This document shows positions 7,046 to 40,000 of a stretch of DNA of 40,088 nt, piece by piece; position 1 is the stretch's first letter, and every line of letters begins with the position of its first letter. Source of the stretch: a virus; the IMG/VR virus record IMGVR_UViG_3300033997_000355, positions 1-40,088 of that record. The stretch is one strand, 5' to 3'. A program made the translations under genes and the position numbers. The notes beneath the pieces were generated by a model, which was given only the letters and a program-made list of their open reading frames with translations, made no database searches and was not told the DNA's origin.

Positions 7046-8221
7046 TCACACCCCTCGCACGACGTCGGCGGTGACGGTCGGCACGCCCAGGTCAGCGGCG
7101 CGGTTCATCGCGGCGGTGAGCGCGTTCTGGACGGCCAGTGGGTACAGCAGCGAGCCCGCACCGCGCGAGGGAACCAGCTTGGCCCGCAGCGCGTCGATGG
7201 CACTCTGTTCCACCACCTTGTCCAGCGGCACCTGGGCGCGCTTGAAGCGGTGAGTCAGGTAGGCACCCAGCTCGTTGTCCAGCGGCGGCAGCGTGATGAT
7301 TTCAATGCGCTGTACCACTTCGCGCACCTCCGGGTTGTGCTCGGAGAGCTTCACGCCCAACTCGGGCTGGCCGATCAGGATCACCGACAGCAGCGGGCGC
7401 AGGCCGTCCTTCAACTCGCGGAAGCGCTTGAGGTGCTTCAGCGTGGGCAGCGGCAGGCTGTGGGCCTCCTCGATCACCAGCACGTGGCTGTGGCCGGAAC
7501 GAGCACTGTCGCGCAGCGATTCGTGCAGCTGACGGAAGCGGGCCTCCGGGCTGCTCTTGGGCTTGGCCAGTGGCGCGACGGCGGCCATGATCGCCTCAGC
7601 GATGTGGTGGCTGCGCAGGGTCTTGCCGACGGCGTCACTGCCTTCACTGGCCAGCACATAGGGCTGGATCACAATGACCGCCTGCTCCTCACGCTGGATG
7701 CGATCGACCAAGTCTTCGCGAAGGGTGCTCTTGCCGGCACCGCTTTCGCCGATCACCGCCGCGAAACCACCGTGGCGTGCCACCTGGTACATGCTCTCGC
7801 GGACGTAGCGGATGTCCGGGGAGAGGAACACCTCCTCGGCGCTGGCCGGATCGGCGAAAGGATTGGTGGTCAGGCCGAAGTGACGCTTGGCCTGTGGGGT
7901 CAATGCCTGAAAACGCAGTAGCATGGGATCTTCCTCGTCGTGGATTTCGTTGTCGTTATCGGTGTCTTGCGGTGGGGAAACCGGGGCCGGCGTGTTGGAG
8001 CACGTCGGCCCCTCTTGCTCATGCCAGGCGGCATCGGTCACGCCGTGCTGGTTCAGGCAGGAACTGATGGCAGCGCGCACCGCTGCCGGATCGCAGCTGG
8101 TAGGCAGCTGGCCGTGGTTGATCAGCGCATTGAGGGCCGGACGGCTCAGGCCCGCGGCGCTGGCCAAGTCGCCCTGCTTAATGCCGGCATCGGTGAGCAG
8201 GCGCTTCAGACGCAGGGTCAT
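7046..8221 (-). CDS. tnpB: Mu B-like AAA+ transposition ATPase (target selection subunit)
   Basis: The 391-residue protein has an N-terminal helix-turn-helix (about 12-35, KQGDLASAAGLSRPALNALI), a linker rich in Pro and Asp (71-98), and an AAA+/ExeA-type ATPase core. Walker A is GESGAGKS at 158-165, Walker B is HVLVIEEAH at 246-254, and a sensor-like LLSVILIGQPEL follows. The family polymerises on target DNA with ATP, delivers targets to the transposase and gives target immunity. It is encoded immediately downstream of the A subunit, with four bases of overlap. The order A then B in one operon is typical of Mu-like phages. B of Mu is 312 residues, so this form is longer, as in the D3112/B3 group. 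Confidence 0.95.
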   Translation of the reverse strand: MTLRLKRLLTDAGIKQGDLASAAGLSRPALNALINHGQLPTSCDPAAVRAAISSCLNQHGVTDAAWHEQEGPTCSNTPAPVSPPQDTDNDNEIHDEEDPMLLRFQALTPQAKRHFGLTTNPFADPASAEEVFLSPDIRYVRESMYQVARHGGFAAVIGESGAGKSTLREDLVDRIQREEQAVIVIQPYVLASEGSDAVGKTLRSHHIAEAIMAAVAPLAKPKSSPEARFRQLHESLRDSARSGHSHVLVIEEAHSLPLPTLKHLKRFRELKDGLRPLLSVILIGQPELGVKLSEHNPEVREVVQRIEIITLPPLDNELGAYLTHRFKRAQVPLDKVVEQSAIDALRAKLVPSRGAGSLLYPLAVQNALTAAMNRAADLGVPTVTADVVRGV

Positions 8222-10020
8222 GCGGCACCTCCTTCCACCAGGCGCAGGCCGCCACGTTCCGGTGTGGCCAGGGTCTGTGCCCAGGACTCCACCTGATCCA
8301 CCGGCAGACCATCGGGCCAGCGCTGGGCGGTGCGGGCATAGTGGTCAGCCGTCCAGGTCGAACCCGCCGCCTCCAGCAGGGGCTTCAGACGCATGGCCGC
8401 TTCCACATGGTTCAGCGGCGGCAGCTCGGCCCGGATCGGGGCGGGCTCAATACGCTGGGCGGCCAGCACCTGCGGCACATCGACCTGGGCGACGCGGCCC
8501 GAACGCGGCAGGCTCGGAGCCACGTTGGCCTCGCGCAGGTGCTTCATCGGGTCGACCTGACCACCGAAGGCCACGCGCTTGGCCTTGCGCGCAACCGCTA
8601 CCTCGGCATCGGTCTGGACCTGCATGGCGAGCCGGTCCAGTTCCTTGCGAGCTGCGTCGGCCGGCGTCTCCGGAGCCGTTCGGTACTCCGTGCCAACCTG
8701 GGCAGCGCTGTCCAGGAACCCCCAATCGTCCCGTCCGATGCGCGGTGCGATGTAGTGCACGGGTGCGCAATCCTGTGTGCCCGGCATCAGCACACGCACG
8801 CTCCCCTCTGGATCCAGAGCATTGACCACCACGTCGACGCGCTGACCGTTGATGAGGCCGGGCACACCACGCACGTCGTACTGCTGGGCGCGGAAGCGGA
8901 TCATGCAATCACGTACGGTGCAAGCCTTGGGCGCGCTGGTGGCCAGCTGCCGCAACACCTCTACCGCCGGAGCCAGGCGCAACTGGTCAGGGGTGATGCG
9001 CAACCAGCCATCGCGGCGGGTGTAGCCGGTGCGGCTGTGGGTGCGTGTGGCGTTATAGGCCTGCGCCCACTGCTGGGCCAGAGTGTTGATTTCCTCCAGG
9101 CTGGTAACCGGCGCACGCAGCTTCAGCAGGGCTTCGAAGTGCGTTTCGATCAAGTAGTTCGCATTCTCGACCTGACCCTTTGCGCGTGCATTGCCGACTT
9201 CGTTGATGATCGGCTCGATGCCACAGGCCGCCAGGAAGCTGCTGGTGCTGGTGGCTGTCATGGCGCTGCCCGGATCCATCATCAGGAGCTTGGGGACACC
9301 GTGCATCGTGCCGGTCTCGCGCCGGGTCATCGCATGGATCAGTGCCGAGAGTAGGTTGGCGCTGCTCTCGGCGCCCAGAACGTAGAAAAGCTCAATCGCG
9401 CCGCTGGCATGGTCGGTGATGGCATAGCGCCAGAGCCGTCGTTCGGCGATCTTGGTGAAGTTGCCTGGCTTGCCGCGGTAGAACTCGCGCTTGTCCATCA
9501 CCCGCGTGCCGTCATCGGCCAAGTAGAACTGGCGGCTGACCGAGGCATCGATCTGCCACAGGTAGTTGGGGTGCGGAGAGGACAGGCGTGCAGCTGGTGT
9601 TGCTGCCGCCAGCTGATCACGATGGAAGCCGTAGTGGCGAATGGCGCGGCAGATCGCCGAGGTGCTCAGCTGCACCACCTCGCCGGTACCCTTGTCCACG
9701 CGCATCGCCTCGATCTTTCCGTTAGCGCGCAGGGCATCCACGGCTTCTTCGACCGGCAATGCGCCCGTGCCGGTCAAGCGACGGGTTTCCTCCACAAGCG
9801 CCGCAATCGAGGCGGCTTCATCGCGGGTGAGGGACAGTTCGCCCGCATCGGACCTGCGCTTGCGGGGCTTGAGAGCCGCCGTCACCTTGGACAGGTGACG
9901 GTAGGCCGTCTGGACCGAGCATCCCAGCTGCTCGGCCAGCGCGGAGGCAATGCGCCCCTTGCTGCCGTGCGGCGCCGCCAGCAACTGGCTGGCCGCAGCC
10001 TGGATGAGGACCTCGGACAC
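8218..10020 (-). CDS. tnpA: DDE transposase A subunit
   Basis: This 600-residue protein is the phage transposase/integrase, which pairs the ends, nicks them and joins them to target DNA. An N-terminal helix-turn-helix lies at about 21-46 (KGRIASALAEQLGCSVQTAY). The retroviral-integrase-type core carries the catalytic triad D158 (WQIDAS), D249 (MMDPGS) and E285 (GQVENAN), with 35 residues between the second D and E, as expected. A Mu-transposase C-terminal barrel and a basic tail follow. I start it at the GTG at 10020 because GGGGA lies seven bases upstream and the codon follows the neighbour's stop directly; the longer reading to 10110 overlaps that neighbour. No lesion is seen, so it should be active. 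Confidence 0.96.
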   Translation of the reverse strand: MSEVLIQAAASQLLAAPHGSKGRIASALAEQLGCSVQTAYRHLSKVTAALKPRKRRSDAGELSLTRDEAASIAALVEETRRLTGTGALPVEEAVDALRANGKIEAMRVDKGTGEVVQLSTSAICRAIRHYGFHRDQLAAATPAARLSSPHPNYLWQIDASVSRQFYLADDGTRVMDKREFYRGKPGNFTKIAERRLWRYAITDHASGAIELFYVLGAESSANLLSALIHAMTRRETGTMHGVPKLLMMDPGSAMTATSTSSFLAACGIEPIINEVGNARAKGQVENANYLIETHFEALLKLRAPVTSLEEINTLAQQWAQAYNATRTHSRTGYTRRDGWLRITPDQLRLAPAVEVLRQLATSAPKACTVRDCMIRFRAQQYDVRGVPGLINGQRVDVVVNALDPEGSVRVLMPGTQDCAPVHYIAPRIGRDDWGFLDSAAQVGTEYRTAPETPADAARKELDRLAMQVQTDAEVAVARKAKRVAFGGQVDPMKHLREANVAPSLPRSGRVAQVDVPQVLAAQRIEPAPIRAELPPLNHVEAAMRLKPLLEAAGSTWTADHYARTAQRWPDGLPVDQVESWAQTLATPERGGLRLVEGGAA

Positions 10021-10021
10021 G

Positions 10022-10939
10022 TCAGATCCCCGCGTCGTTGATGACAGGGATCGCGATGGCCAGATCCTCGTCATCGCGGGCGATGCGCACCGACGTGAGG
10101 AGGCGGCCAATCACGTCGCTCAGGAACCGAGCCGCGTCCTCCTCGACGTGGTTGTCGCAGGCAAAGTCGGCCAACGCCTGGATGGAGGCTCGCAGGCCGC
10201 TACCCTCGCTGCCGATGGCAGCCAGAACATTCTGCTCCGCCTCGGTTACCGCCTGCTTGAGGGTGACCAATTGCTCGTCGGGCGTAGCGGCCTTCCAGCG
10301 GCGCTGCGCCTTGATGGTCTTTTCATGCTCCTTGTTCAGATCCTCGCTCAACTTGTTGATGCGCTGATCTTTCGCGTCGGCATCGGCCCTGGCTTCGCGC
10401 AGAGCTGCGCGCAGTTGGCTTGCGCTCATGCGCTCCACGTCGTCCACGGTGATGCCCGCAACCGACTCTCCGGACTCCAGCGCCTGCAGGTCCTCGTCGT
10501 CCAGAACCGCCAGTTCCAGTACCTTTGCTTGGGTGCCGGCGGCCTTCAAAAGTGACACCGTGTCACTTTTGGAGAACTTCAGGGCGACGGTCATCAGGCG
10601 TGCCGCCGTCCGGTAGTTGAACCCGCGCATAGCGATCTGCTCTTGGAACTCGCCATGTGCGGTCTGCTCCTTGATGAGCAGCAGACCCCTGCCCATTTCG
10701 AGGATGTCTTCAACGGAGCGGCGCTGGCGGTACTCGACCATGCTCCAGAGCGAATCGGTGTCCAAGGCGCCGGCATAGCCCAGCGTGGTAGCCAAGGCCT
10801 TCACCTGCGCCTCGGCCTGCGCCATGACTTGCAGTTCCTGGTTGCGCTCGACCAGCTTGCCCGTATCCAGATCCGCGCCAACCGGCTCGGCTTGGGCAAG
10901 CGCCTTAGCGCCGCGCTTATTGGGTTGCTTCTCTGCCAT
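10022..10939 (-). CDS. DUF3102-like early protein, 305 aa, with internal 25-bp palindrome
   Basis: The central segment RQRRSVEDILEMGRGLLLIK...HGEFQEQIAMRGFNYRTAARLM resembles DUF3102-type phage proteins (a helical domain often seen near ParB-like or replication genes). A long charged coiled-coil follows (about 180-235, RADADAKDQRINKLSEDLNK). Acting just ahead of A in the operon, it may help organise the transposition complex, but no function is established. The ATG at 10939 has GAGG six bases upstream; ATG 10954, overlapping the previous stop, is possible. Positions 10547-10571 in the coding strand form a perfect palindrome, described separately. Confidence 0.75.
   Translation of the reverse strand: MAEKQPNKRGAKALAQAEPVGADLDTGKLVERNQELQVMAQAEAQVKALATTLGYAGALDTDSLWSMVEYRQRRSVEDILEMGRGLLLIKEQTAHGEFQEQIAMRGFNYRTAARLMTVALKFSKSDTVSLLKAAGTQAKVLELAVLDDEDLQALESGESVAGITVDDVERMSASQLRAALREARADADAKDQRINKLSEDLNKEHEKTIKAQRRWKAATPDEQLVTLKQAVTEAEQNVLAAIGSEGSGLRASIQALADFACDNHVEEDAARFLSDVIGRLLTSVRIARDDEDLAIAIPVINDAGI
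10547..10571. promoter_or_regulatory. 25-bp perfect palindrome inside the DUF3102-like gene
   Basis: CAAAAGTGACAC (10547-10558) and GTGTCACTTTTG (10560-10571) are exact reverse complements around one central C. Twelve-base arms with no mismatch are not required by the encoded peptide. The element could be a binding site for a phage or host protein (an operator, a parS-like centromere, or an accessory transposition site), or an RNA hairpin within the early message. I see no second copy in the window. Confidence 0.6.
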
Positions 10940-10953
10940 TTCGATCCTCGTCA

Positions 10954-11247
10954 TCAGTTGGGGCTACGGCTGTAGCGGTTCTTGAAGTCATCCAGCTGCC
11001 GCTCTTCACGGGCCACCTCGGCTTGATGGGCCAAGGCGATCTGGACAATTCGGGGGGACAGACGCCAGTTGTCCTGGTCAAAGGGAGAGCGCTCGACCAA
11101 GCCGTCCTCGGCCAGGCGCTGCAGGTTGCGCAGCGTGGTGCTGGGGGATTCGCCGATGGCGTCGGCAACGGGTTTCAGGCGCAGACCGGTGCGGCTGTGC
11201 CCGGCCAGCGCGAACAGCAGGCGGGTGAAGATGCTCTGCTCGCTCAT
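10954..11247 (-). CDS. Winged-helix regulator-like protein, 97 aa
   Basis: The protein starts MSEQSIFTRLLFALAGHSRT and contains LKPVADAIGESPSTTLRNLQRLAEDGLVER (about 24-53), an IclR/MarR-like winged helix in which ESPSTTLRNLQRL is the recognition part. A charged C-terminal helix follows. The start at 11247 overlaps the upstream stop (ATGA). Position in the early operon near the repressor suggests a phage regulator acting on early promoters or on the ends, perhaps in the role of Ner, but no direct evidence is visible. Confidence 0.75.
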   Translation of the reverse strand: MSEQSIFTRLLFALAGHSRTGLRLKPVADAIGESPSTTLRNLQRLAEDGLVERSPFDQDNWRLSPRIVQIALAHQAEVAREERQLDDFKNRYSRSPN

Positions 11248-11477
11248 GCCGCAGCACCCTGCTGGCGGCGCGCCAGTTCCTTCAGGATGCGAACGACGCG
11301 GCGGTCGGCTGCGTCGCAGGCGCCGGCCAGTGGCAGGGTGAGCGCCAGCGGCTCGTCCGATTCGACAGCACGCTGCCAGCTGCTCACTGCGGTGGCGTAC
11401 TGGTCGCGGGCTGAGGCGAGCAGCAGCTCCAGTTCGCGGGTGGAGACCTCGTCCATTGGGCGGCCCGGGGCGTTCAT
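11244..11477 (-). CDS. Small helical early protein, 77 aa
   Basis: The product is almost wholly helical (STRELELLLASARDQYATAV and a basic C-terminal ADRRVVRILKELARRQQ). ATG 11477 overlaps the stop of the first operon gene, and an in-frame ATG lies at 11456; neither has a clear ribosome site, so translation is probably coupled. Its stop overlaps the next gene's start. No family is recognised. Confidence 0.65.
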   Translation of the reverse strand: MNAPGRPMDEVSTRELELLLASARDQYATAVSSWQRAVESDEPLALTLPLAGACDAADRRVVRILKELARRQQGAAA

Positions 11478-11683
11478 GCGGAGGCACTCAGGCCAGCGGC
11501 CTTCAACAGCCTGCGCCGCAGGGCCTGACCCTTCGGGCCATTCCAGCGCCCGATGAGGACGTCCCGTGCGTTCTGCGGCGGCACGCCGTTCTCCATGCAC
11601 CAGCCGCGGAGGCTGGTTCCCTTGCCAACGAAGGCGGTACGGACCTTGAGGTGAAGATCCAGGCTGGGGGCGGGTTCGCTCAT
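11474..11683 (-). CDS. Ner-like DNA-binding protein, first gene of the early operon
   Basis: The 69-residue protein has KVRTAFVGKGTSLRGWCMEN followed by VPPQNARDVLIGRWNGPKGQ. This is a small helix-turn-helix type in which SLRGWCMENGVPPQNARDVL forms the two DNA-binding helices. Such proteins are found as the first leftward gene opposite the repressor of Mu-like phages, where Ner dampens early and repressor promoters. AAAGGAT lies seven bases before the ATG at 11683. Divergent to the repressor and just below the predicted early promoter, it is probably a Cro/Ner-type negative regulator. Identity as Ner proper is inferred from position and size. Confidence 0.75.
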   Translation of the reverse strand: MSEPAPSLDLHLKVRTAFVGKGTSLRGWCMENGVPPQNARDVLIGRWNGPKGQALRRRLLKAAGLSASA

Positions 11684-11745
11684 CGCGTGTATCCTTTGAT
11701 CCTTGTTCCATTGGTTGGCTGCTCTAGGCGCTGCCAGTGGAAGTA

Positions 11746-11774
11746 ATCATGGTACGGATTTCCGTGCCTGTCAA
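11746..11774 (-). promoter_or_regulatory. Early promoter (Pe), leftward
   Basis: Read on the minus strand, a perfect -35 TTGACA (11774-11769) is followed by exactly 17 bases and a -10 of CATGAT (11751-11746). The start of transcription would fall near 11740, giving a leader of about 55 bases before the first early gene at 11683. It is the only strong sigma-70 promoter I find on this strand near the operon. Confidence 0.75.
11754..11765. promoter_or_regulatory. Operator O1, palindrome in the Pe spacer
   Basis: ACGGA-TT-TCCGT is a perfect 12-bp inverted repeat lying wholly between the -35 and -10 of the early promoter. A dimeric repressor bound there would block RNA polymerase. It is the best candidate binding site for the C-type repressor encoded at 11797. 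Confidence 0.65.
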
Positions 11775-11784
11775 CACATATGGC

Positions 11785-11796
11785 ATGGAATTTCGT
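11785..11796. promoter_or_regulatory. Operator O2, imperfect copy at the repressor start
   Basis: ATGGAATTTCGT matches O1 at 9 of 12 positions and lies 31 bp from it, about three helical turns, so two dimers could sit on one face of the DNA. It abuts the repressor ATG and covers its ribosome site, which suggests autoregulation. Confidence 0.45.
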
Positions 11797-12168
11797 ATGA
11801 CGATCGGAACCCGTCTGAAGAGCGAGCGGGAACGCCTGGGGCTCACGCTGCCTGAGTTCGCGGAACTCGCAGGGGCGAAGAAGAACACCGTGATTGACTG
11901 GCAGAGAGACACATCCAGCCCCCCTGCCGCTAAGCTGGCTGCACTTGCTGAAGCTGGAGTGGATCCGCTTTACGTGTTGACGGGGCAGCGCAGCATCGCG
12001 CGGCCCGGCATGACGAACGCTGAGATCACGCAGTTCAATGACGTGGTGGATACGTTCTGGATGCTGTCCGATCCCGGTCGCGTAATGGCCTTGAACATGC
12101 TGACGGCCTTACTAGCGAAGGAGACCCAAGAAGGGTCGTCTCGTGGATTGCGTAAGCCAAAGGCCTGA
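11797..12168 (+). CDS. C-type phage repressor (XRE helix-turn-helix)
   Basis: The 123-residue protein has an N-terminal XRE domain: MTIGTRLKSERERLGLTLPE, the helix-turn-helix at about 17-36 (TLPEFAELAGAKKNTVIDWQ), and the fifth-helix motif VDPLYVLTGQ near 55-64. A C-terminal helical region (about 75-110) probably dimerises. There is no LexA-type self-cleavage domain, so induction would not go through RecA-driven autoproteolysis. It is the first rightward gene, divergent from the early operon, and should keep the lysogen by binding the operators at 11754 and 11785. I chose ATG 11797 over 11785 or 11737 because GGAA lies six bases ahead and the domain starts there. Confidence 0.88.
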   Translation: MTIGTRLKSERERLGLTLPEFAELAGAKKNTVIDWQRDTSSPPAAKLAALAEAGVDPLYVLTGQRSIARPGMTNAEITQFNDVVDTFWMLSDPGRVMALNMLTALLAKETQEGSSRGLRKPKA

Positions 12169-12667: not shown

Positions 12668-12756
12668 TTCAGGGTGATCGTGATCTGACGCCCCCTCCGC
12701 TGTAGCGTGGATCGCCCCGCCTTCCCACACTCTCACGCGCGCGCGGGAGATTCCTC

Positions 12757-15106: not shown

Positions 15107-16843
15107 GTGAGTGTATTGGGTCCCCTGCCGGATACCGAGCGCGTCCTGGATTGGGATGAGCTGCCTGAGAGCGTGCGTTCGATCTCGGCAAACTTCGATC
15201 CGAGCAAGGCCGGCGTGCTGATGGCCCATCAGTCCGAATGGATCCGGATGCAGGAAGGGCTGGATATCGCGGTCTGCGAAAAGGGCCGCCGTACGGGCAT
15301 CACCTTCGCGCAGGCGCTGAGCGACACCATCACCGCCGCCTCCGCCAAGGATGCCGGCGGCGACAACGTGTGGTACATGGCCGACACCAAGGAAAAGGGC
15401 CTGGAGTTCATTGGCTACGTGGCCAAGTTCGCGCCGATCATTGCCCAGGGCCAGGCCTCGCGTATCGAGCAGCACATCTTCCAGGACCAGCAGCCTGACG
15501 GCACCAGCCGGCAGATCCAGGCATTCCGGGTTCGCTTCGCCAGTGGTTTCCGTATCACGGCACTCTCCTCCCGCCCTGAGAACATCCACGGCCTGCAGGG
15601 CGTGGTCGACCTGGACGAAGCGGCGCTGCACAAGGACGTGGCCAAGGTGCTCGAATCGGCCACCGCGCTGCTGATCTGGGGGGGCCGGATCCGCGTGTGG
15701 TCTACTCACCGCGGCAAGAAGAATCCGTTCAACCAGCTGGTGCAGGACGTCCAGGCCGGTCGCTACGGCCCGAAGGCCGGGGTCATCCGCATCAGCTTCG
15801 ATGATGCCGTGTCCAACGGGCTGTATGAGCGGGTCTGCGCCATGCGTGGCAAGGTGGCCACCGCCGAGGGCAAGAAGGAGTGGTACACCGCCATCCGCTC
15901 GGCCTATGGCCCGCGCAAGGCCGCCATGCGTGAGGAGCTGGACGTCATCCCGCGCGATGGAGATGGCTCGGCCATTCCCTCAGTCTGGATCGACCGGGCC
16001 ATGCCCGAGACCCGGCCTGTGCTACGCCTGGTCTTCGATGACGACTTCCCCAAGCGCTCGGAAAAGGAGCGCGAGATTTGGTGCTCGGTCTGGATCGCCA
16101 CCACGCTGCTGCCAGTGCTGCGCGCGGCGATGGCCGGGTTTACCGGGCGCTGGGCAATCGGCATGGACTTCGCGCGTCACCGCCACTTCTCAGTGATCAA
16201 GCCGGCCAAGGTCAGTCAAGATCTGCGCCGGGACGTGCCGTTTCTGATCGAGATGGCCAACGCGCCCACCCGCCAGCAGGAGCAGATCCTGTGGGCGCTG
16301 CTGGATGCGCTGAAGGAAGGATGCCCTGGGCGGTGGTCGTTCGCTGGCGACGCCACTGGCCCCGGGCAGACCTTGATGGAATACACCGGCGACCGTTACG
16401 GCCGGGCCGAGCTCGATGCGGAGACGGGGCGCTACAGTGGCGGCCCGATCCATGAGGTCACCCTGTCGCGGCCGTGGTATGGCGAATGGATGCCCAAGTA
16501 CATCGCGTTGTTCGAAGACGGCTTCATCAGCCTTCCCAGGGACGCGTCCCTGGAAGACGACCACCGCGCGGTGGAGTACGTCGACGGCATCCCGATGGTG
16601 CCGCGTCTGGAACGGAAGGACCTGCAGGATCCGGAGCTGGTCCGCCACGGTGATGGCGCGATCGCCGGCGTGCTGATGCAGTTTGCCGCGCTCAACCACG
16701 TCACCTCGGTGCCCATCGAGTTCCAGGCGGCCGGCGCTCGCGCCTATTTCGGCGACGGCCGGGCTGACGGCATGGCCACCGTCGTGACCGATGAGGCCTT
16801 CGGCACCGTCAGCGGCGGCAATGATTTTGGAGGATTCGTATGA
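15107..16843 (+). CDS. Large terminase (Mu gp28-like)
   Basis: The 578-residue motor packages phage DNA with adjoining host DNA into proheads. A degenerate Walker A region lies at about 57-66 (CEKGRRTGIT), Walker B at 166-173 (VVDLDEAA), and the RNase-H-like nuclease starts near 350 with GMDFARHRHF. This matches Mu gp28-type terminases. It starts at GTG 15107 with GGAG eight bases upstream, right after the previous stop, and overlaps the portal gene (ATGA). Confidence 0.92.
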   Translation: MSVLGPLPDTERVLDWDELPESVRSISANFDPSKAGVLMAHQSEWIRMQEGLDIAVCEKGRRTGITFAQALSDTITAASAKDAGGDNVWYMADTKEKGLEFIGYVAKFAPIIAQGQASRIEQHIFQDQQPDGTSRQIQAFRVRFASGFRITALSSRPENIHGLQGVVDLDEAALHKDVAKVLESATALLIWGGRIRVWSTHRGKKNPFNQLVQDVQAGRYGPKAGVIRISFDDAVSNGLYERVCAMRGKVATAEGKKEWYTAIRSAYGPRKAAMREELDVIPRDGDGSAIPSVWIDRAMPETRPVLRLVFDDDFPKRSEKEREIWCSVWIATTLLPVLRAAMAGFTGRWAIGMDFARHRHFSVIKPAKVSQDLRRDVPFLIEMANAPTRQQEQILWALLDALKEGCPGRWSFAGDATGPGQTLMEYTGDRYGRAELDAETGRYSGGPIHEVTLSRPWYGEWMPKYIALFEDGFISLPRDASLEDDHRAVEYVDGIPMVPRLERKDLQDPELVRHGDGAIAGVLMQFAALNHVTSVPIEFQAAGARAYFGDGRADGMATVVTDEAFGTVSGGNDFGGFV

Positions 16844-39586: not shown

Positions 39587-39950
39587 CGTAATTGCCGGCC
39601 AGCGGCCGGCACTACCCCCCTGTGCCGGCCATGCCGGGTGGGATGAGGCCGATGGCTTTGGGGTCGGATCCCTTGCTGCAGGCAAGGATTCAGACCCCAT
39701 CCACGCATGGCGTGGATCTCCTGGTAGAGCCGGCCGCTGGCCGGCTTCCCGTAGTTGCCGGCCAGCGGCCGGCACTACCCCCTGTGCCGGCCATGCCGGG
39801 TGGGATGAGGCCGATGGCTTTGGGGTCGGATCCCTTGCCGCAGGCAAGGGCTCTGACCCCATTCCACGCATGGCGTGGATCCTGGTAGCGCCGGCCGCTG
39901 GCCGCCTTCCCGTAATTGCCGGCCAGCGGCCGGCACTACCACCGCGCGTG
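39587..39950. repeat. Host REP-type tandem repeat array, right flank
   Basis: Two full units and the start of a third are visible. Each unit runs from CTTCCCGTA(A/G)TTGCC to the next one, with starts at 39582, 39745 and 39906, giving periods of 163 and 161 bp. Each contains GGCCAGCGGCC at one end, GGCCGCTGGCC at the other and a central hairpin. This stretch holds no gene. The units act as a landing site for the phage here. Confidence 0.88.
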
Positions 39951-39969: not shown

Positions 39970-40000
39970 CAAACAAAAAGGCCGCCCCAGGGCGGCCTTT
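39970..40000 (-). terminator. Terminator of the host cyo operon
   Basis: AAAGGCCGCC (39977-39986) pairs with GGCGGCCTTT (39991-40000) across a CCAG loop. Read on the minus strand the stem is followed by a T-rich run, so it ends transcription from cyoD about 25 bases after its stop codon. Confidence 0.85.

Follow-up and report, generated by a model that had tools for sequence, protein, structure and literature searches.

Lambdoid repressors and their palindromic operators diverge together, which gives rise to private specificities; these operators are intergenic and multiple. In the ParB–parS and Noc–NBS systems, an HTH protein is associated with a palindromic site of 14–16 bp, and parS is nearly invariant. 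Specificity in ParB/Noc is determined by residues 173 and 201, which are 28 positions apart; the latter reads base 6 of the 7-base half-site, the second from the dyad (PMC7383237). Among transposable phages, Mu carries in its early region an internal cis site, the enhancer, bound by the transposase MuA itself (PMC5977238), whereas the enhancer-binding domain is reported to be missing from Leptospira transposable prophages (PMC8705779). ParB-like genes are known from the roseophages vB_ThpS-P1 and vB_PeaS-P1 (PMC5488378). The locus described here, a palindrome within a gene of the DUF3102 family, shares traits with the repressor–operator, ParB–parS and Mu enhancer systems.

The window, a stretch of 40,088 nucleotides from an IMG/VR virus record (IMGVR_UViG_3300033997_000355), resembles B3/BcepMu-type transposable phages according to the gene orders of phiSHP3 and B3, and Stenotrophomonas genomes hold prophages with near-identical genes. 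Its DUF3102 gene (10022–10954, minus strand; phrog_1748) codes for a protein of 310 aa, P0001, with a predicted ParB/Noc-like DNA-binding domain and a coiled coil. The match to Pfam DUF3102 (PF11300; E=5.7e-6, 27.0 bits) is above the curated cut-off of 24.4. On the 5′ side of this gene lies a small IclR-type winged-HTH gene (10954–11241, minus strand), an order common to B3, phiSHP3, KP12 and PhiKM, and a divergent Cro/CI-type HTH gene, probably encoding the repressor, is found at 11800–12168 on the plus strand. Transposase A (8218–10020, minus strand; rve/DDE) has its GTG start one base past the DUF3102 stop and is followed by the AAA+ ATPase transposition protein B (7046–8221, minus strand). 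Transposase A comes next in 111 of the 116 DUF3102 genes that have room for it on the contig.

The sequence-only reading had noticed a 25-bp perfect palindrome inside the DUF3102-like gene, ahead of transposase A, and its coordinates proved exact: CAAAAGTGACAC-C-GTGTCACTTTTG occupies 10547–10571, nt 384–408 of the gene, directly 3′ of the HTH codons (10568–10651, minus strand) and just upstream of transposase A. It covers the last base of S128 through L136 (KSDTVSLL), encoded on the minus strand. The claim that such a palindrome is beyond chance was also borne out. Among short-spacer palindromes in the 40-kb window it has the highest score, no second copy with three mismatches or fewer is present in the window, and 0 chance copies at this level are expected from shuffles. 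The phage seldom uses the codons found in it (AAA, 8% of Lys; AGT and TCA, 8.5% and 4.6% of Ser; CTT and TTG, 6% and 10% of Leu). Four near relatives show 84–98 differences across the gene, 66–71 of them at third codon positions, and none at the 25 positions of the palindrome.

Homologous loci were chosen by protein similarity and not by the palindrome, except for a handful of pattern matches; 102 non-redundant gene entries were collected, and the 80 that could be placed in one register were used for statistics. About 80 of about 100 non-redundant homologous genes carry a palindrome of 25–32 bp at the equivalent position, with 49 distinct cores. The ends of these sites are constant (CAAA...TTTG), the interiors vary symmetrically with compensating changes in the two arms, and the encoded peptide is not conserved. 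Homologues with as little as about 30% identity still have a palindrome just past the HTH codons, spelled in different letters, for example CAAATGCGTCGACGTCGACGCATTTG, CAAATGTTTCGCATGCGAAACATTTG, GCAAATCCCGAACGCGTTCGGGATTTGC, TCAAAGTTGCCGACGTCGGCAACTTTGA and CAAAACGGGCGACGTCGCCCGTTTTG; it is also present in the phages B3, Fc22, E. coli PhiKM, Klebsiella KP12 and Microcystis Mae-JY22. Synonymous-codon shuffling rarely produced comparable palindromes: a score of at least 11 was reached by 35 of 79 real genes and by 2 of 948 shuffles, and a score of at least 13 by 26 real genes and no shuffle. The outcome named beforehand as speaking against a role for the palindrome, homologues keeping the peptide and losing the palindrome, is the reverse of what is seen, since a palindrome of other sequence is kept and the peptide is lost.

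No site was found in L220 and L225, and no AAAAGTGACAC-type site in the DNA examined of L229–L232, whose DUF3102 proteins have the helix YRTARRYM; a conserved AAACTGGCCAAATTTGACCAGTTT lies just 3′ of the DUF3102 gene in these four. A tblastn search of phages and plasmids with the L077 protein as query gave no match. Scanning 84,980 genomes for the pattern returned 49 stretches, most of which are unrelated regulatory repeats. In lactobacilli, the core GTGACAC-N-GTGTCAC (L029–L076, genome scan) also lies just 5′ of TetR-like genes; in Cytophagales, it occurs within long inverted repeats between genes, with arms of 28 bp in L035 and 22 bp in L040. When L009 and L011 are aligned to P0001, the N- and C-terminal parts are near-identical and the central cassette of HTH and palindrome is swapped, which suggests a modular exchange of specificity.

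When protein columns were compared with half-site bases by mutual information, with permutation within linker groups, the pair residue 118–base 7 ranked first (z 24.5), followed by 143–base 12 and 115–base 8. In P0001, the HTH corresponds to AlphaFold helices 102–109 and 114–129 and contains R115 and A118, which covary with site bases 8 and 6–7, respectively; the codon of A143 is at 10526–10528 (minus strand), and its column covaries with site base 12 (S with A and T with T in relatives). None of these three residues is encoded by the palindrome. At bases 6–7, R118 goes with CG in 11 of 11 sites, Q118 with GC in 34 of 40 and A118 with GT in 12 of 14. Base 8 is G with R115 (45/45) and H115 (10/10) and C with K115 (4/4), and the pairing of S143 with A or T143 with T holds in all 59 sites that have A or T at base 12. 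On a tree that left out the HTH, palindrome-encoded and 143 columns, independent switches were concordant in 12.5 of 15 cases for Q118 (p 2e-4) and in 11.4 of 13 for residue 115 (p 1e-3), with no opposite case for either, and independent pairs for residue 143 were 7:0 concordant (p 0.016); R118 and CG changed 11 times each. Pairings of residue 118 derived from one linker group predicted 15 of 21 sites of the other two groups (permutation mean 8.5; 0 of 5000 as good). The residue-to-base code, as read from these alignments, is not universal: L077 and L080 (R118) and L021 (N118) pair with the window's GT-type site, and V118 is mixed.

Because the site covaries with the HTH of the DUF3102 protein, we read the palindrome as the putative self-site of this protein. 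It is very probably a double-stranded DNA site that forms, with its cognate DUF3102 protein, a parS-like pair; a parS-like site bound by the product of this gene was among the options of the sequence-only reading and is strongly supported by the covariation. The site would be two-fold symmetric, about 26 bp long with the half-site CAAA[A/T]NNNNCGNN, and presumably bound by a DUF3102 dimer. The ParB/Noc-like HTH would read it through residue 118 at bases 6–7 and residue 115 at base 8, and through residue 143 at base 12, close to the dyad. The site would move with the HTH as one cassette and the two would diversify jointly, leaving each phage lineage with a private recognition pair. This would assign a likely molecular function, and a target on DNA, to a family of unknown function next to the transposase, which occurs in transposable phages of Stenotrophomonas, Pseudomonas, E. 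coli, Klebsiella and Microcystis and also in a Spirochaetes genome, and natural variation alone yields a readable amino-acid-to-base recognition code. In open-licence full texts, we found no prior description of a DUF3102 self-site (priority elsewhere is possible); DUF3102 is mentioned in three of these texts, none with a title on its function, and searches there by site sequence or peptide gave only chance primer-type matches among those listed.

In some phages the site is displaced from the DUF3102 gene. Ps60 has no in-gene palindrome, but TCAAATGTGCCGTCAACGCCACATTTGA is present within its repressor gene. The helix of Ps60, IDRHVAARFM, corresponds to LDRHVAARFM in L158, which has the site TCAAATGTGCCGTCGACGGCACATTTGA in its DUF3102 gene. 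In L193, L204 and L157, the sites predicted from the helix were found 2.2–2.7 kb upstream, in the repressor region. Upstream palindromes are also present in PM105, L111 and L121, and that of PM105 is, as in Ps60 and L021, within the repressor gene. L021 was found by DNA pattern alone, inside an XRE repressor gene, and encodes a DUF3102 protein with a window-like YRTA-R helix. Two prophages co-resident in one Stenotrophomonas genome (L233 and L237) differ both in their recognition helices and in their palindromes, as expected for private recognition pairs.

Like ParB and Noc, the DUF3102 protein has an HTH and a putative palindromic site, and its predicted fold comes nearest to theirs. The AlphaFold models are confident, with a pLDDT of 85.7 for the whole of P0001 and 91.4 (pTM 0.82) for its DNA-binding domain. 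With the model of this domain, 13 of 22 PDB matches obtained by Foldseek, the top three included, were ParB, Noc or KorB; the top matches to Spo0J/ParB, Noc and KorB had probabilities up to 0.97 and E-values of 0.17–0.5, individually non-significant. The domain thus appears closest to ParB/Noc in the models, and membership of ParB is not established. A cognate palindromic site, as is typical of ParB/Noc proteins, is indicated by the covariation, and protein and site probably work in a manner resembling ParB/parS recognition. Residues R115 and A143, also 28 positions apart, may by analogy be equivalent to ParB/Noc residues 173 and 201, and residue 143 would likewise read the second base from the dyad. 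Unlike ParB–parS and Noc–NBS, the DUF3102 pair has a 26-bp site, which diversifies fast where parS hardly varies, and is without the ParB_N CTPase domain, ParA or sequence-profile similarity. Profile–profile comparison with ParB (hhalign) found no homology (probability 2.5); ParB_N (PF02195) had no match in P0001, whose N-terminal part is modelled as all-helical or disordered; and a ParA partner gene was absent among the early ORFs tested, where only the AAA+ transposition protein B was seen. As in lambdoid repressor–operator families, protein and palindrome diverge jointly, whereas the DUF3102 site is single and lies within the coding sequence of the protein itself.

In alphaproteobacterial transposable phages (RcapMu13), ParB-like genes occupy the slot adjoining transposase A, as DUF3102 genes do, but encode a different protein with a true ParB_N domain. 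The true ParB gene of RcapMu and a 51% relative (L241:5045-5067 and L256) bear different 23-bp in-gene palindromes (CGGTGGGAAAACTTTTCCCACCG, CGGTGGAACAAGTTGTTCCACCG). In L257–L326, the slot before transposase A is taken by JBD18-type genes with diversifying palindromes centred on [GA]ACGGT[TC]; 29 of 51 have a palindrome score of at least 8, and some (L299, L307, L321) have two identical copies. JBD18-type proteins have a divergent N-terminal half and no Pfam DUF3102 match, and match phrog_1748 over residues 87–293. Like the Mu enhancer, the site in DUF3102 genes is internal to the early region of a transposable phage and would act in cis; the enhancer is bound by the transposase, whereas a separate protein is proposed to bind the DUF3102 site, whose enhancer role would be one of analogy. 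The Mu enhancer-binding domain PF02316 is present in transposase A of Mu and D3112, which have no DUF3102- or ParB-annotated gene upstream of the transposase, and was not found in that of the window, B3, JBD67, phiSHP3 and PhiKM. RcapMu, where the ParB gene and a weak PF02316 are both present, weakens a strict rule by which a site-binding protein would replace PF02316 wherever this domain is absent, and the inverse relation between the two is suggestive only.

In the lytic phase, the bound DUF3102 complex might act in cis, marking the genome of its own phage for transposase A, and so replace the Mu enhancer or a centromere, a role that we consider quite possible. Autoregulation is a real alternative use of the site, which would then be an operator or a transcription roadblock limiting expression of the early operon (A/B). 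An internal activation site for transposition and an operator for early expression were both among the options of the sequence-only reading, and either may be the use of the site. The site does lie within the operon, 5′ of transposase A, and HTH proteins commonly autoregulate; in addition, the B3-like phage Fc02 transcribes its pE operon (transposases A and B) upon induction (PMC9936078). However, no terminator or promoter overlapping the palindrome was found, the sole promoter-like sequence in 9900–11850 being more than 1 kb upstream, and in Ps60, PM105 and L021 the site is in the repressor gene, in the other transcription unit, so that the effect of a roadblock would be reversed. We regard autoregulation as less likely, and the enhancer or self-mark role is preferred since there is a single site, whose location differs from phage to phage. 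Tentatively, transposable phages may share an architecture in which the gene before transposase A (DUF3102/ParB-like, divergent JBD18 type or true ParB) encodes a self-recognition protein with a private, fast-diversifying in-gene palindrome, which would mark its own genome, separate co-resident prophages and serve as a ParB/parS-like replacement of the Mu enhancer. Marking by the DUF3102 complex offers a testable answer to the question of how Mu-like phages without the Mu enhancer-binding domain organise transposition and distinguish the DNA of co-resident prophages from their own.

It is improbable that another protein (repressor, Ner, transposase A or a host factor) binds the site and that the association with the HTH reflects linkage alone. 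Linkage is tight, as tens of bases separate the palindrome and the HTH codons, and some copies are within repressor genes. However, the strongest covariation is confined to three positions of DNA-contact type and does not extend to all neighbouring columns; it also has independent recurrences on the tree and extends to sites at kilobase distances.

An RNA hairpin in the early mRNA, acting as a processing, translation or attenuation signal, had also been suggested and is highly improbable. A stem of 11 bp is possible in RNA, but the fold is unremarkable (z -1.1) and the centre is complementary where a loop would be free. In 70 even sites, complementarity outward from the dyad was 0.71, 0.99, 0.97, 0.97, 0.91, 0.99, 0.96, 0.93, 0.74, 0.97, 1.00, 0.97 and 0.93, falling beyond the 13th position to 0.56 and then 0.21; the second base pair from the dyad, unpairable in a hairpin, was complementary in 99% of them. 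Site bases 1–4 (CAAA) are nearly fixed and variation is highest at bases 5–9 and 12. Base 5 takes A or T with no need of a matching partner (23 T.T mismatches, counted over all positions), and the other mismatches, 8 A.C against 5 G.T, show no preference for G.T. Symmetry through the centre and mismatches unlike those of G.U pairing argue for a double-stranded DNA site; together with the displaced copies, which retain their sequence in the other transcription unit, they contradict a hairpin with a free loop and tolerated G.U changes, which would moreover give no reason for the covariation with the HTH. A mobile or mutational palindrome (template switching or a selfish insert) tolerated in the linker would suit the in-frame location in a tolerant region and the occurrence of the same core in unrelated contexts, but is scarcely credible in view of the constant length, ends and position, the helix-specific core and the resemblance of the core elsewhere to ordinary regulatory inverted repeats, and a mobile repeat is contradicted by the single copy in the window and in each of two Stenotrophomonas genomes, where it is within the prophage; one of these two genomes also has a second prophage, whose helix and palindrome differ.

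Other symmetric sequences were noticed in the window. A late gene contains a perfect 18-bp palindrome, CCAGGGACGCGTCCCTGG (16536–16553), which recurs in many relatives (L002, L004, L005, L007, L012, L017), and a near-perfect palindrome, TCTCACGCGCGCGCGGGAGA (12731–12750), lies 5′ of lysis-type genes and is perfect in L003 and L016. Close to the right end there are two large related inverted repeats (GGTAGnGCCGGCCGCTGGCCGGC...; 39723–39779 and 39883–39941) and a terminator-like hairpin at 39977–40000.
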